From the IMG/VR virus record IMGVR_UViG_3300025887_000155, positions 1 through 22,369 of that record: 22,369 nucleotides of DNA; one strand, written 5' to 3'. The position numbers and the translations under genes were made by a program. Source of the stretch: a virus. Below, piece after piece: positions 2,100-22,369 of this stretch (the stretch's first letter is position 1; each line of letters opens with the position of its first letter). The notes below the pieces were generated by a model, which was not told the DNA's origin, ran no database searches, and saw nothing but the letters and a program-made list of their open reading frames with translations.

Positions 2100-4013
2100 T
2101 TAACTTTCTGTTCCAGCGCCTCCGTTATAGAGTGCTGTTATTTCTGCTTCTGTTACTTCGTAACCTTTCCATATTCTTAAAATGTCCATGTTACCCTGAA
2201 ATTTATTATTTGTTAAACCACCGTTCTGATCTCCTATTTTTAGGAAATAACTTGTTAAAGGCATTCCGGTATAATTACCTTGTTCACTAGAACTCTCACT
2301 TGCTGCCACATCGTTTATTCTCATTTTTAAACCACTTGCGTCACCACTACCGTCATAAGTAATAAATATCTGATTCCAAGCATTTGTAACCGTATTACCA
2401 TTGTCGCCACAAACCAAATAATTACCTGAATCTGTATAAGCATAGAAAGTCATCCACCCACTTTGGTAAATCATTTTATACTCCCCTTGGCCTGTGTTTT
2501 CGTAAAACTTATTTAAAGGCCTACCAAAAGACTGAAAGGGATATAACCAAATCTCTATAGAGAATGGGTCAGCTCCAAAACTTAATTGAGAAGACGAAGG
2601 AACATTTACACTTTGACCGTAAGCTCCATTGTAATTAAATCGATAACCTTTATCTATAACCCCAAGTTGATTAAGTTCTGGGGTGCCTTGTCCAGCCACA
2701 CCTTGTGTTAATGTTCCCTCATTACTATTAACACTACTATCCAAAGCAGTAGTTCCACTTAATTCGTTGAATTTGTAGAATAAAGATAAGTTGCTAGTTA
2801 AAGGGTTTAAGCAATCAACTAAGTATTCGTTATTATCGTAATTTGTTCCTTGATATTGACCGACAGAAAACACAAAACTCCATTGCGTGTCGTTTACGAT
2901 TCCAACATAAGGTATCCCTATCGCTGAAACTAATCCTGGAGACACTAAGATGTAGTAACTTCCGATAGAAGGTATGTCGTTTCCATCTCCAAAAACATTA
3001 GGTATTGATAGTTGGTTACTAACAATAGTCATGTCTGCTTCGGTGTATGTCACTAGTGGTGTTATTGGAAGTGACCCAAGTGCGTCATATATCTTTATTG
3101 TACCCACCCCTAATTCTACAGGCACATTGAAATTCATTTCTAAATTTGGGTCTACAGTACAAGTAGTATAAACAGAATCCATTGCGACTTGAGTGCTAAC
3201 TAATGATAACCCACCTGAGAATATTTGATAGTCGTAAACATATATGTCAGATTCGTTTCTATACAAATTAAAACTAGCTCCAAACTGATTAGTTTTTCCG
3301 ACCCTACCATTTTCTTTTATTAATGGATTGTTTGATACTCTTATATTATCGATGTAAATCTCGTCATGAGCAAACGTCTTCTTTAAAGCAGTATATGTTT
3401 GTAGGTCAATCCTTTCTAATACATAGTCATGAGCTGTTTTTTCTAGAAGCCTGTTAGAGATAGTGTTCCCGGTGGATATTTGAAAGTATTCACCAACTTC
3501 GCTATTATCTATAACTCCTACATACTCGCAAAATATTCTGATAGATTGGTAGTAAGGTACTATTTGATAATCAATACCTTCTAGACTGTTAAAGTTTTTA
3601 TAGTCAAATCTAATGGTTTTCTCTATGTTCTTATTAGTAATCTTTAATGGATTCGAATAGTAAGAATTATTATTTGTAGTGTTTGTTAGTTTAAGCATTA
3701 CAGCTCTACCGTGATAGTCAACGGTTAGATTTATATACTCTATAGCGCACTGGGTCACTCCCTTTGAGTCTGTGTATTGCTCTATAAACACGTTAGGAGT
3801 AACGTCATCTAAAACTTTTCCATCCCTATCAATAGTCTCTACTTTATATGTTCCGTTAAAAACAACTCCTGTAGCATTATTAGTTATCTGGAGATAGCTT
3901 TCTGTAGGAGATAACTGTACGCTAAAATGGTAAGCTATTTGCGTAGTCTTGTAATCACCTAAAGATAAAGCTTCGGCAAGCGTGTTATTTAATTTTATAA
4001 AACTTCTATCCAT
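2100..4013 (-). CDS. LamG-domain tail adhesin (637 aa)
   Basis: Residues 410-637 carry the hallmarks of a LamG/concanavalin A-like lectin domain. It opens with LFYKFNELSGTTALDSS, continues with FSIEIWLYP and NAWNQIFITYDGSG, and closes with the typical FQGNMDILRIWKGYEVTEAE and ITALYNGG. Such domains bind sugars or proteins and in phage tails usually touch the host envelope. The first 400 residues are beta-rich with no recognised domain and probably anchor the protein to the tail tip. The start overlaps the preceding stop as TAATG (shared A at 4013), indicating translational coupling to the 913-aa tail gene. The LamG call is firm; the exact receptor and whether it sits in the baseplate or a fibre are unknown. 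Confidence 0.8.
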   Translation of the reverse strand: MDRSFIKLNNTLAEALSLGDYKTTQIAYHFSVQLSPTESYLQITNNATGVVFNGTYKVETIDRDGKVLDDVTPNVFIEQYTDSKGVTQCAIEYINLTVDYHGRAVMLKLTNTTNNNSYYSNPLKITNKNIEKTIRFDYKNFNSLEGIDYQIVPYYQSIRIFCEYVGVIDNSEVGEYFQISTGNTISNRLLEKTAHDYVLERIDLQTYTALKKTFAHDEIYIDNIRVSNNPLIKENGRVGKTNQFGASFNLYRNESDIYVYDYQIFSGGLSLVSTQVAMDSVYTTCTVDPNLEMNFNVPVELGVGTIKIYDALGSLPITPLVTYTEADMTIVSNQLSIPNVFGDGNDIPSIGSYYILVSPGLVSAIGIPYVGIVNDTQWSFVFSVGQYQGTNYDNNEYLVDCLNPLTSNLSLFYKFNELSGTTALDSSVNSNEGTLTQGVAGQGTPELNQLGVIDKGYRFNYNGAYGQSVNVPSSSQLSFGADPFSIEIWLYPFQSFGRPLNKFYENTGQGEYKMIYQSGWMTFYAYTDSGNYLVCGDNGNTVTNAWNQIFITYDGSGDASGLKMRINDVAASESSSEQGNYTGMPLTSYFLKIGDQNGGLTNNKFQGNMDILRIWKGYEVTEAEITALYNGGAGTES

Positions 4014-13498: not shown

Positions 13499-14050
13499 TT
13501 AACATTGCTCATTAATATAATAACTTAAATCCAGGTTAACACTAAAACAATGAAACGGTTGCGTATCACTTAGTCTAATTCCTGAAGTCTCAAAACCCTG
13601 AAAAACATTCTTAATCCCTTTAGTAATCCCTGTTATTTCAAACCTCTCAAACGCATTGTCACGCAATATAGCGATAACATCTTGTTGGATTTTTTGGTCT
13701 TCTCTTTCAGTTCCAGCATAAGCTTTCTCAAGGTCTAACATGAATACAACTTTAACTTCGGCAAGAAACTTATTCTCGTCCTTAGTCTTGTGTTGTTGAT
13801 TCTCAATAAATGCGAATACCAATGAATAATCATCATCGTAATAAACATCTACATAGTCTCCTTTTGTTGCGTTATACCACTCTGGGTTAATAGCGTTAGA
13901 GTTTGCGTCCGAGCTATGCTCATTCCTATAGACTCTACCATAAGCTGAAATGTCACCTTGTACGCTCGCTGAAAGCAAATCATATAAAGTATTCTTGATA
14001 TTCTCGATATCAACATCTATGCCTAACGGATTAGTGAGACTATTGTTCAT
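13499..14050 (-). CDS. Probable tail terminator / tail completion protein (183 aa)
   Basis: The protein has a mixed alpha/beta layout without membrane segments: an N-terminal helix (IENIKNTLYDLL), strands around YVDVYYDDDYSLVFAF, a helix-rich middle (REDQKIQQDVIAILRD) and a final strand pair in PFHCFSVNLDLSYYI. This order resembles the small alpha/beta tail terminators that cap the tube at the head end, encoded between connector and tube genes as here. The start overlaps the connector gene stop by 11 nt. Family membership was not tested; a profile search against tail-terminator families would settle it. Confidence 0.5.
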   Translation of the reverse strand: MNNSLTNPLGIDVDIENIKNTLYDLLSASVQGDISAYGRVYRNEHSSDANSNAINPEWYNATKGDYVDVYYDDDYSLVFAFIENQQHKTKDENKFLAEVKVVFMLDLEKAYAGTEREDQKIQQDVIAILRDNAFERFEITGITKGIKNVFQGFETSGIRLSDTQPFHCFSVNLDLSYYINEQC

Positions 14051-14645
14051 GAGTTATAGTTCCTGAGACTTGCCCTTTAGTTATTGTTTTTAATAGATTT
14101 CTTTGTGTGCCAAACCTTCTTTGGACAGATTCAATTTCATATCCGTATCTAGTTGCAACACCTAACGTGTAATTGTAGTTTGCGCCTCTAATAGCAAACT
14201 TGTTAGGAGCTGAACGAAATACATCATAATTTAATCTACCTAAGAATTCTTCGGTAAGACGTTTGATACCGTTCTTTCTTGGTGAAGTTGAAATCAACTC
14301 CGAAATAACGATAACCATTCTCAATGAGATTGCCTTATCGAATCCTCTAGGGTATAACACTAGTAAGTTATCGTCTACAGTATCTCTTTCAAAACTATCA
14401 TTAAGAACTTGAGTAACAGCTTGCTTCTTAATAACTTCTAGATAAGTCTGAAAATCAGCCTCGCTTATACCAGCTATAGGTTGACATTCTAAAACGTTTT
14501 CTAGAGTTATAGCGCTGTGTTCATCCTGAAAGTTTGAACCACTTTCGGAAAGTACATTCTCGGCTGAAAGAGAGAAGTCTATTGTGCCGTCTTCCCTCCA
14601 ACCGATTCGTTTAACTAGTTCTAATGATAGTTCTGTTAGAGTCAT
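14040..14645 (-). CDS. Probable head-tail connector protein (201 aa)
   Basis: This is the first gene after the major capsid gene (2 nt gap), the usual place of the adaptor that docks on the portal ring. The protein is largely helical: residues 60-120 (EADFQTYLEVIKKQAVTQV; FDKAISLRMVIVISELI) could form the helical bundle typical of such adaptors, and the C-terminal 50 residues are more strand-like (NYTLGVATRYGYEIESVQRR). There is no catalytic motif. Function is inferred from order and helical content. It overlaps the next gene by 11 nt, consistent with coupled translation. Confidence 0.55.
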   Translation of the reverse strand: MTLTELSLELVKRIGWREDGTIDFSLSAENVLSESGSNFQDEHSAITLENVLECQPIAGISEADFQTYLEVIKKQAVTQVLNDSFERDTVDDNLLVLYPRGFDKAISLRMVIVISELISTSPRKNGIKRLTEEFLGRLNYDVFRSAPNKFAIRGANYNYTLGVATRYGYEIESVQRRFGTQRNLLKTITKGQVSGTITHEQ

Positions 14646-16486: not shown

Positions 16487-16855
16487 TTATTCGTTTATTT
16501 TTTCGGTTAACTTAATACCTCCCATTTGAGGGTGAGGTTGCTTCCCAAATTTCTCTGAATAAGCATTTCTTAATTCTTCAAGTTCAAGTTCAGTAAACGT
16601 TGGAGCTGAAGCTGATTTAGCTTTTCCAGAAGTAGCTTCTTTTTTAGCTGTGTCTTTTTTAGCTGTTGGCTTTTGGTCTTCAGCTAAAATATAACGTCTT
16701 CGGTAAGCGTTTTTGTTACGATTCATTATTTCAGCTTCGTCTTTGGTTATAAAAACCCTTTTCTGAGTCTTCTCGCCTGTTTTTTTGCTAGTGTTTAGCA
16801 ACGGAGTCCATTCTCCTCTGTGTAGTTCTTCTACAAGGAACTTAAATTGTTTCAT
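16487..16855 (-). CDS. Small head protein with Lys/Ala linker and HeH-like C-terminus (122 aa)
   Basis: Residues 1-60 are a small mixed domain (QFKFLVEELHRGEWTPLL). Residues 63-84 are a Lys/Ala-rich flexible linker (PTAKKDTAKKEATSGKAK). Residues 86-120 read like the short HeH/LEM-type helix pair seen at the ends of assorted phage proteins (LEELRNAYSEKFGKQPHPQM). The gene overlaps the portal gene by 14 nt and comes 3 nt before the scaffold gene, so it belongs to head morphogenesis. It might be a minor head or decoration protein. The function is not known. Confidence 0.6.
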   Translation of the reverse strand: MKQFKFLVEELHRGEWTPLLNTSKKTGEKTQKRVFITKDEAEIMNRNKNAYRRRYILAEDQKPTAKKDTAKKEATSGKAKSASAPTFTELELEELRNAYSEKFGKQPHPQMGGIKLTEKINE

Positions 16856-18557
16856 TTTGTTTAATTGTTTTATTGTTAATGTAATTGTTAAAATTCTCTG
16901 TTAACTCAGATATGTTTAGTAATGTTTTCTGAGCTTCTGTTAAGGACTGAAGCCAATCAGCATAGTATGCTTTCTTAATTTTATCCTGATCCGAAAGACC
17001 AGCTAAAGATAGTATATCTTTTACACTTGAAGTAGGAAAAGGCTCTATTTTTGACAGTTTGTCTTGTTTTGATAACTCAACAGCGTCATTTTGATACTCA
17101 GCGTCGAAATACTGCTTTCTCAAATCAAGTATAACAGCGTCTGACACGTTTTTTGTCACGGTGTCAGTATACTTTTTAAGTATATCATCAGGACTTTCTA
17201 AGATATATCTCATTCCGTAAGAAACAGAACTTTGATAAGAGTTATCCCTTAATACAACCTTTCCGAAACAATCTATCATAAACTTATGTAGTTTAGCAAA
17301 TGTTTCAGACATATCTCTTAATCTGTCTTGTACTGGCTGTGCGTCTAAGAATCGACCAGTAGCCGTTTCTCTTTTACCACCTTGTTCGTAAGTTGTTCCC
17401 CACATAGACTGAAACATTCTATTTCTGTCTTTGTCCATCTTCTCTACATAGAATTTTGCTGTCTGTAAATCAGGACTAACAAATCCCATTAGATTAGGAG
17501 CTACTATTGGGTCGTCAACTTGAGGTAAAGGAACTACTGTTTCATCACTAGGATTAGTTCTAGTCTTAGCTCCACTACCACCACATGAACCACATGTAGT
17601 AGACTCAAATACATCAGGGTCTTCACCAGCTCCTTCGCTAATAAGCGTGTTCACCATTCCTTCTCCGTCACACCTGGTACATGCTTGAGCATAAGACCAA
17701 TATCTAGGATATAAGTGAGCTAAGTCGTGAACAGTACTTGTTGAAACAAGCCTAAGTAATGCATCAGCATCTTCTACTACATCAGCTATAATACTTTCAA
17801 AAACCTCGTAGTTAGGGTCTTTTTCATCACCTAATATACGAGCAGGCACAAAACCAAAGAAGTTATCCATTCTATCGGCAACTACCTCTACATATGTGCC
17901 TCCCTCATTAGTGAATATTCTATCAGTATACTTGTCTATTACTCTGTAGTATTTTTTCTCTTGTTGTATCTTTAAGTAGGATTCCCCTTGTTCGTTGTTG
18001 CCAAGATTTCTGTAAATCTGTTCATCAACCTCAGATAGCTTCTTTTTGTGAGATTCAAATATAATAGCTTCTACGTTATTCCCTTTGTTGGAATACCATA
18101 GTATTTCTTCTGTATTAACAACATGAGTCTCTAGCTTACCTTCGTCATCTACGTCAATAAACAAAACACCATTAGGATCGATAACATATTGCTTCTTTAC
18201 AACCTTCTTTAAGAATTTCTTGATATCAAGCACATCGGAAGTAGTGCTTATGCTAGATTTTAAAAGGTCTATTCCACCTTGATTTAGATTGTAAGATATG
18301 CTACCTCCTTTCGCTGTGAATATTTTATCAACCGGCCTTAGTATAAATGAGAAAAGAGAACGGTTTGATTTAACTAACTTCTCTCTTAATAATTTCTGTG
18401 CATGAGTTTCGTAGTCGTCCAGCTTAATAAGGAAGTCTGAAACCCCTTTTCCTGTAACATGCATTCGGTTTTTCTTAGCTCTTTTTCTAGAAAGTTTAAT
18501 CTCCGGAGAGACACCCTTTTCTATTAGCTTAATAACCGTACTATTATCTAAAGTCAT
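16842..18557 (-). CDS. Portal protein with DnaJ-like zinc-ribbon insertion (571 aa)
   Basis: The gene lies between the large terminase and the scaffold/capsid genes and has portal length. It forms the dodecameric ring through which DNA enters and to which the connector binds. Residues 1-290 form the N-terminal wing part (for example GVLFIDVDDEGKLETHVV). Residues 370-440 include the long helix region typical of portals (YVEKMDKDRNRMFQSMWGTT; ATGRFLDAQPVQDRLRDMSE). Unusually, residues 293-300 (CTRCDGEG) and 322-329 (CGSCGGSG) are two CxxCxGxG motifs like those of DnaJ, separated by 21 residues, which probably bind one zinc ion. The start codon is 59 nt after the terminase stop, with a promoter-like box in the gap, and the end overlaps the next gene by 14 nt. 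Confidence 0.85.
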   Translation of the reverse strand: MTLDNSTVIKLIEKGVSPEIKLSRKRAKKNRMHVTGKGVSDFLIKLDDYETHAQKLLREKLVKSNRSLFSFILRPVDKIFTAKGGSISYNLNQGGIDLLKSSISTTSDVLDIKKFLKKVVKKQYVIDPNGVLFIDVDDEGKLETHVVNTEEILWYSNKGNNVEAIIFESHKKKLSEVDEQIYRNLGNNEQGESYLKIQQEKKYYRVIDKYTDRIFTNEGGTYVEVVADRMDNFFGFVPARILGDEKDPNYEVFESIIADVVEDADALLRLVSTSTVHDLAHLYPRYWSYAQACTRCDGEGMVNTLISEGAGEDPDVFESTTCGSCGGSGAKTRTNPSDETVVPLPQVDDPIVAPNLMGFVSPDLQTAKFYVEKMDKDRNRMFQSMWGTTYEQGGKRETATGRFLDAQPVQDRLRDMSETFAKLHKFMIDCFGKVVLRDNSYQSSVSYGMRYILESPDDILKKYTDTVTKNVSDAVILDLRKQYFDAEYQNDAVELSKQDKLSKIEPFPTSSVKDILSLAGLSDQDKIKKAYYADWLQSLTEAQKTLLNISELTENFNNYINNKTIKQNETI

Positions 18558-21937: not shown

Positions 21938-22123
21938 GACACGTTGTCATGTCACGTTGTCAGGTGTCATGTGCCAGGGTGTCATGTGCCAGGGTGTCAT
22001 GTCCTCGAATCCCTGTGATAGCAAGGCTTCCCAAAGGTTGTCATGTTCTGGCTTGTCATCTTGTCAGGTTGTCATGTGACAGATCGTCACGTTGTCAGGT
22101 CAGGCTGTCATGACGTTGTGACA
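21937..22123. repeat. Cluster of TGTCA motifs (12 direct, 3 inverted)
   Basis: TGTCA occurs on the plus strand at 21945, 21950, 21958, 21965, 21980, 21995, 22039, 22054, 22062, 22070, 22093 and 22106, and its complement TGACA at 21937, 22077 and 22119. Longer copies exist: a 15-bp unit TGTCATGTGCCAGGG stands twice in tandem at 21965-21994 with a third partial copy, GTCACGTTGTCAGGT recurs exactly at 21951 and 22086, and GGTTGTCATGT at 22037 and 22067. The layout suggests repeated protein-binding sites or a decaying minisatellite. Confidence 0.85.
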
Positions 22124-22243: not shown

Positions 22244-22369
22244 GGTGCATTGTATCAGGTGCATTGTATCAGGTGCATTGTATCAGGTGCATTGTATCAG
22301 GTGCATTGTATCAGGTGCATTGTATCAGGTGCATTGTATCAGGTGCATTGTATCAGGTGCATTGTATCA
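22244..22369. repeat. Nine perfect tandem copies of a 14-bp unit
   Basis: The unit GGTGCATTGTATCA is repeated exactly nine times without a mismatch up to the last base of the window, so nine is a minimum. The identical copies point to recent expansion or active homogenisation, or to an assembly artefact at a contig end. The unit is not a multiple of three, yet no reading frame on the plus strand contains a stop; the minus strand has a TGA in every frame. It resembles an iteron array in form, but no replication gene is in the window. Confidence 0.9.

Follow-up and report, generated by a model that had tools for sequence, protein, structure and literature searches.

Portal gene and its siphovirus neighborhood

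The window analyzed here is the whole of a 22,369-nucleotide stretch of viral DNA (IMG/VR record IMGVR_UViG_3300025887_000155), and its minus-strand gene set is a siphovirus head–tail module. Read along that strand, it encodes the small terminase, the large terminase, the portal, a 122-aa protein, a 267-aa protein that occupies the usual place of the scaffold, a 340-aa virion protein, and proteins of 201 and 183 aa, with tail genes and a tape measure of 1396 aa beyond the last of these (Table 1). The portal gene is thus placed between the large terminase and capsid genes. During packaging, the large terminase is the expected docking partner of the portal's clip, and the 201-aa protein is, by position only, a candidate for the head–tail adaptor expected on the clip once packaging has ended. 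Downstream of the tape-measure gene, a 637-aa ORF (2100–4013, minus strand) carries a Laminin_G_3/concanavalin-like lectin domain (PF13385, E = 5.8e-11), which makes it a candidate receptor- or glycan-binding part of the tail.

The portal ORF matches the phrog_7376 profile over residues 1–568, that is, over its full length (E = 5e-112), and the profile of phrog_145/DUF4055 weakly (E = 2.3e-5). Among the members of phrog_7376 are Polaribacter phages P12002S and P12002L, Bacteroides phages B40-8 and B124-14 ('MP3'), Parabacteroides phage PDS1 and the protein of PDB entry 9WWA; the family is already known, and its members are annotated as portal or 'major protein 3'. The two Polaribacter phages are the closest isolates by portal, at 60% identity, with an alignment that covers the whole length in the case of P12002S, and an identical portal (100% identity) lies on a 37.5-kb viral contig, L222.

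The end of the window is repetitive. A 14-bp unit, GGTGCATTGTATCA, is repeated nine times without a mismatch through positions 22244–22369, up to the end of the record, and in viral contigs two adjacent copies of this unit were found only in L222, the carrier of the identical portal. The array may mark an assembly break within it, or a replication or packaging site. Beyond the small terminase, the intergenic stretch 21940–22120 is rich in TGTCA and includes 2.7 copies of the 15-bp unit GGTGTCATGTGCCAG at 21963–22002; it is a possible cluster of binding sites.

Table 1. Coordinates of the portal gene, its parts and its structural neighbors in the window
Feature	Positions	Strand	Basis or remark
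201-aa protein directly after the capsid gene	14040..14645	-	phrog_32171, family without known function
Capsid protein candidate, 340 aa	14648..15670	-	phrog_7231, virion structural protein
Portal protein, 571 aa (phrog_7376)	16842..18557	-	Profile match; AlphaFold model matches solved portals
Tunnel loop region, portal residues 387-406	17340..17399	-	Model; inferred
Second stem helix (alpha5 counterpart), residues 364-386	17400..17468	-	Model; inferred from helix order
Clip domain, residues 280-363	17469..17720	-	Borders estimated from the model's helices and the domain order in SPP1 gp6
Four-cysteine module, residues 293-329 (C293, C296, C322, C325)	17571..17681	-	Insertion relative to DUF4055 portals
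Second knuckle CGSCGGSG, residues 322-329	17571..17594	-	
First knuckle CTRCDGEG, residues 293-300	17658..17681	-	
First stem helix (alpha3 counterpart), residues 258-279	17721..17786	-	Model; inferred from helix order
Large terminase, 524 aa	18617..20191	-	Pfam Terminase_3 and Terminase_6N, phrog_2
Small terminase, 201 aa	20925..21530	-	phrog_51, E = 4.5e-11

Four cysteines conserved as a set

A preliminary description of this DNA had pointed to two CxxCxGxG motifs in the portal, and its coordinates and spacing proved exact: CTRCDGEG and CGSCGGSG are separated by a spacer of exactly 21 residues. These are the sole matches to CxxCxGxG across all six frames of the window, and they hold four of the five cysteines of the portal. 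When the portal sequence was shuffled, 20 of 200,000 versions contained at least one such motif. Chance or composition as the origin of the motif is ruled out by these shuffles together with conservation, because the four cysteines persist in relatives down to 15–18% identity.

Relatives were gathered from phage records, viral contigs and genome contigs, two large scans among these searches using patterns that excluded the cysteines; single-protein scans with the Pan5 and MD05 portals returned no relatives. All four cysteines are present in 103 of 104 non-redundant phrog_7376 portals and none in the one that remains, and in a wider set that includes near-duplicates the complete foursome occurs in 180 of 181 portal sequences, counts that come from collections skewed to Bacteroidota phages and do not represent independent events. 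The cysteines are also among just 24 invariant columns in an alignment of seven phages at 16–60% identity, and the sequence behind the solved structure 9WWA, itself a family member, has all four. The module is therefore family-wide and not special to this portal. Loss of cysteines in random pairs was looked for among the relatives and not found; all four are present or all are absent. Judged from these alignments, selection retains the four cysteines as a set.

What surrounds the cysteines is far less constant. In the window's branch the first pair is spaced as CxxC, whereas Bacteroides-branch portals have Cx10C there and those of Flavobacterium phages Cx4C, each of the three spacings retaining four cysteines; in two Flavobacterium phage portals (L207:253-2253 and L208:301-2013) the first knuckle reads CPNPDC. 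Most members of the window's branch hold the glycine pattern of CxxCxGxG, and the Bacteroides branch has lost these DnaJ-motif glycines while retaining the cysteines. Because glycines are dropped and the first knuckle varies while the cysteines are kept, the constrained property appears to be a four-cysteine metal site and not DnaJ identity. Between the two pairs lie 10 to 25 residues across the 181-sequence set, a variability that counts against a rigid conserved interface in this loop.

The single exception, on contig L168 (2426–4198), is an intact portal ORF of 590 aa with zero of the four cysteines. It is nested within the Cx10C clade (44 tips, support 0.97), every other member of which bears the cysteines, and this placement indicates one derived, concerted loss of the whole set. 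No further cysteine-free portal turned up in a search close to L168, which recovered the L168 contig again and 19 other loci, of which 18 have all four cysteines and one is too short for the region. Since the L168 lineage apparently lives without the cysteines, zinc would not be absolutely required. On its sequence, the L168 portal would be a natural zinc-free version of the protein with its ORF intact.

Predicted position in the clip

An AlphaFold model of the portal monomer, built on a 67-sequence alignment (pLDDT 86.7), contains the portal fold, with stem helix, clip, stem helix, tunnel loop and long helix, and matches many solved portals at VIA Z 16–20. Its best VIA fold match is the portal of Acinetobacter phage SH-Ab 15497 (PDB 8XB5; Z 20.2, rmsd 4.5 over 325 residues); 9WWA was absent among the Foldseek and VIA matches listed. 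The model runs from a helix at 258–279 through a strand at 285–289, the motif region with a hairpin (301–307, 316–321) and short strands to a helix at 364–386, a weak loop that contains the sole segment of at least three residues under pLDDT 50 (inside 387–406), and a helix at 407–435. SPP1 gp6 has its stem at 256–280, its clip at 281–326, its stem again at 327–346 and its tunnel loop at 347–368 (PMC9701221). The helix order of the model is the stem–clip–stem–tunnel loop order of SPP1 gp6, and this places the motif in the clip, between the two stem helices. No helix stands in the model at the spot of the SPP1 clip helix alpha4, nor indeed anywhere in residues 280–363, so that the module may have replaced alpha4.

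Comparison with a sister family supports the view that the module is a separable element. DUF4055/phrog_145 portals, which include those of SH-Ab 15497 and Escherichia phage Shy among others, have no conserved cysteines and no counterpart of window-portal residues 293 to about 326. HHalign aligned the profile of the window's family with a profile of 11 DUF4055 portals over residues 20–470 (probability 95.3, E = 2.2e-8), and the stretch from residue 293 to about 326 is gapped in this alignment, so the module is a clip insertion or replacement relative to the sister family. The relationship is clear only with the 11-portal profile: HHalign against the single SH-Ab 15497 portal gave a low-probability alignment in which cysteines were paired by chance and which we rejected, and against the single T7 gp8 sequence it gave no match. 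Conserved together and inserted relative to DUF4055 portals, the two motifs behave as the one zinc-knuckle-type unit that had been suggested at the outset.

A probable structural zinc module and its alternatives

The zinc knuckles of DnaJ, Anti-TRAP and UvrA are the nearest counterparts of the module in sequence and predicted fold. A clip-fragment profile of 52 sequences, searched against PDB sequences, picked out the zinc domain of DnaJ from E. coli (1exk, E = 2e-10) and, with higher E-values, Anti-TRAP (2e-5) and UvrA (2e-4). A model of the fragment (pLDDT 76 overall, 83–88 over the motifs) found DnaJ, UvrA or lambda Q zinc modules in all of its best 20 Foldseek matches, with probabilities up to 0.99 and E-values that are weak (0.14 or above), and reached VIA Z of at most 4.3. 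The fold matches of this fragment to DnaJ and UvrA zinc modules speak indirectly against a structure in which the four cysteines lie far from one another. The DnaJ cysteine-rich domain shares the CxxCxGxG repeats and provides the predicted-fold match from DnaJA2 (Foldseek probability 0.99), but DnaJ is a chaperone with four repeats and two zinc sites, whereas the window portal has two repeats. UvrA resembles the portal module in its two CxxC knuckles and joining hairpin (Foldseek probability 0.94–0.95), although its module belongs to a DNA-repair ATPase with otherwise no kinship to the portal. Anti-TRAP (RtpA), like the window portal, has two CxxCxGxG motifs and four cysteines and requires zinc for assembly and function (PMC2896485), which indicates that two motifs suffice for a zinc-dependent module. 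It differs in being a free-standing 53-aa inhibitor of the TRAP regulator and in its shorter inter-knuckle loop; when compact relatives are aligned to it, no gap opens from one knuckle to the other. Because the DnaJ-like match rests on few residues, the cysteines and glycines, it may be convergence.

We infer zinc binding, replacement of alpha4, stabilization and a docking role, and consider it highly probable that residues 293–329 are a structural zinc module in the clip, with one zinc per subunit, that shapes the docking surface for terminase and adaptor. The two CxxC knuckles, of the DnaJ, Anti-TRAP and UvrA type, would hold this zinc with their four cysteines, giving twelve per ring. Seated between the stem helices in place of an SPP1-type alpha4, the module would anchor the end of the first clip strand to the beginning of the strand that follows and so fix the shape of the clip, and to judge from the monomer prediction it would be exposed in the dodecamer. 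On this fixed surface the large terminase would dock for packaging, and the head–tail adaptor would bind there afterward. In SPP1, a clip pocket is used by the terminase first and by gp15 second (PMC9701221), and the T7 adaptor grips the clip (PMC6702177); by analogy, a zinc-shaped clip would serve both motor docking and adaptor binding. Of the altered contacts that the preliminary description had proposed, those with terminase and connector fit the predicted clip location, whereas contact with scaffold is less likely for a clip than contact with terminase or adaptor.

Other uses of the four cysteines can be envisioned. The module could be a zinc ribbon that binds nucleic acid and contacts DNA at the channel's exit, for packaging or retention, as the fragment model matches zinc modules of two DNA-binding proteins, UvrA and lambda Q, and the clip of known portals encircles the lower channel; we regard this as improbable, given that the alignments, judged by eye, have no conserved basic patch between the knuckles and that the loop there is variable in length. 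A redox switch or structural disulfides, closing for example once outside the cell and thereby locking the head–tail joint, would make use of two CxxC pairs that are in principle able to form disulfides and of the exit of virions from a reducing cytoplasm, and the widening of the first pair to Cx10C or Cx4C in two clades would be in keeping with it. The cysteines are nevertheless lost all or none and not by pairs, and both the CxxCxGxG glycines in most of the window's branch and the profile matches to DnaJ, Anti-TRAP and UvrA are typical of zinc knuckles. We thus judge a disulfide role less likely than zinc, and quite improbable in itself.

Two further readings seem to us very improbable. One, already raised in part when host chaperone recruitment was proposed for this portal, is that the module acts as a piece of a DnaJ-like chaperone, either by binding unfolded chains of coat or scaffold protein or by bringing in host Hsp70. 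Pfam does match the DnaJ central domain (PF00684) to the window portal at E = 0.018, and 54 of 67 relatives also score below E = 0.05, the best of them at 1.5e-5, but the window's 15.7 bits fall below the gathering cut-off of 32.7, the two motifs amount to half of a four-motif DnaJ zinc domain, the Pfam scan gave no J domain or any other match in the portal up to E = 1, and the Bacteroides clade loses the glycines while retaining the cysteines. Chaperone recruitment accordingly has no support in these data. The other is that selection has favored an altered clip surface that evades clip-sensing host defenses such as SpbK-type TIR systems. There is precedent in SP-beta, where SpbK docks on the clip of the portal YonE and a mutation in that clip allows escape (PMC12847820); the module, however, is near-fixed across the family where escape surfaces would be expected to vary, and nothing within the window points to such a defense.

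Starting from the structural zinc module, one can imagine a bolder scenario, which we regard as doubtful: that this lineage swapped a motor-contacting clip helix for a zinc knuckle of the DnaJ/Anti-TRAP type, whether taken from elsewhere or converged upon, and that twelve zincs around the portal's base govern the change from terminase to adaptor and make packaging metal-dependent. CXXCXGXG motifs have been described in other phage proteins, a DNA polymerase (PMC9038755) and another (PMC3853051). In the literature that we searched, no description of zinc in any phage portal was found, which is weak evidence of absence because subscription papers are poorly covered, and the authors of 9WWA may already know the site.

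For annotation, the family suggests a simple rule: a portal that matches DnaJ zinc-domain models is no chaperone. Phages of the human gut, those of Bacteroides, are among the carriers of the module. If zinc is bound, a lineage-wide and near-invariant metal site in the clip would offer a natural handle on clip function, and because the family includes the isolated Bacteroides fragilis phages B40-8 and B124-14, a functional test is practical.
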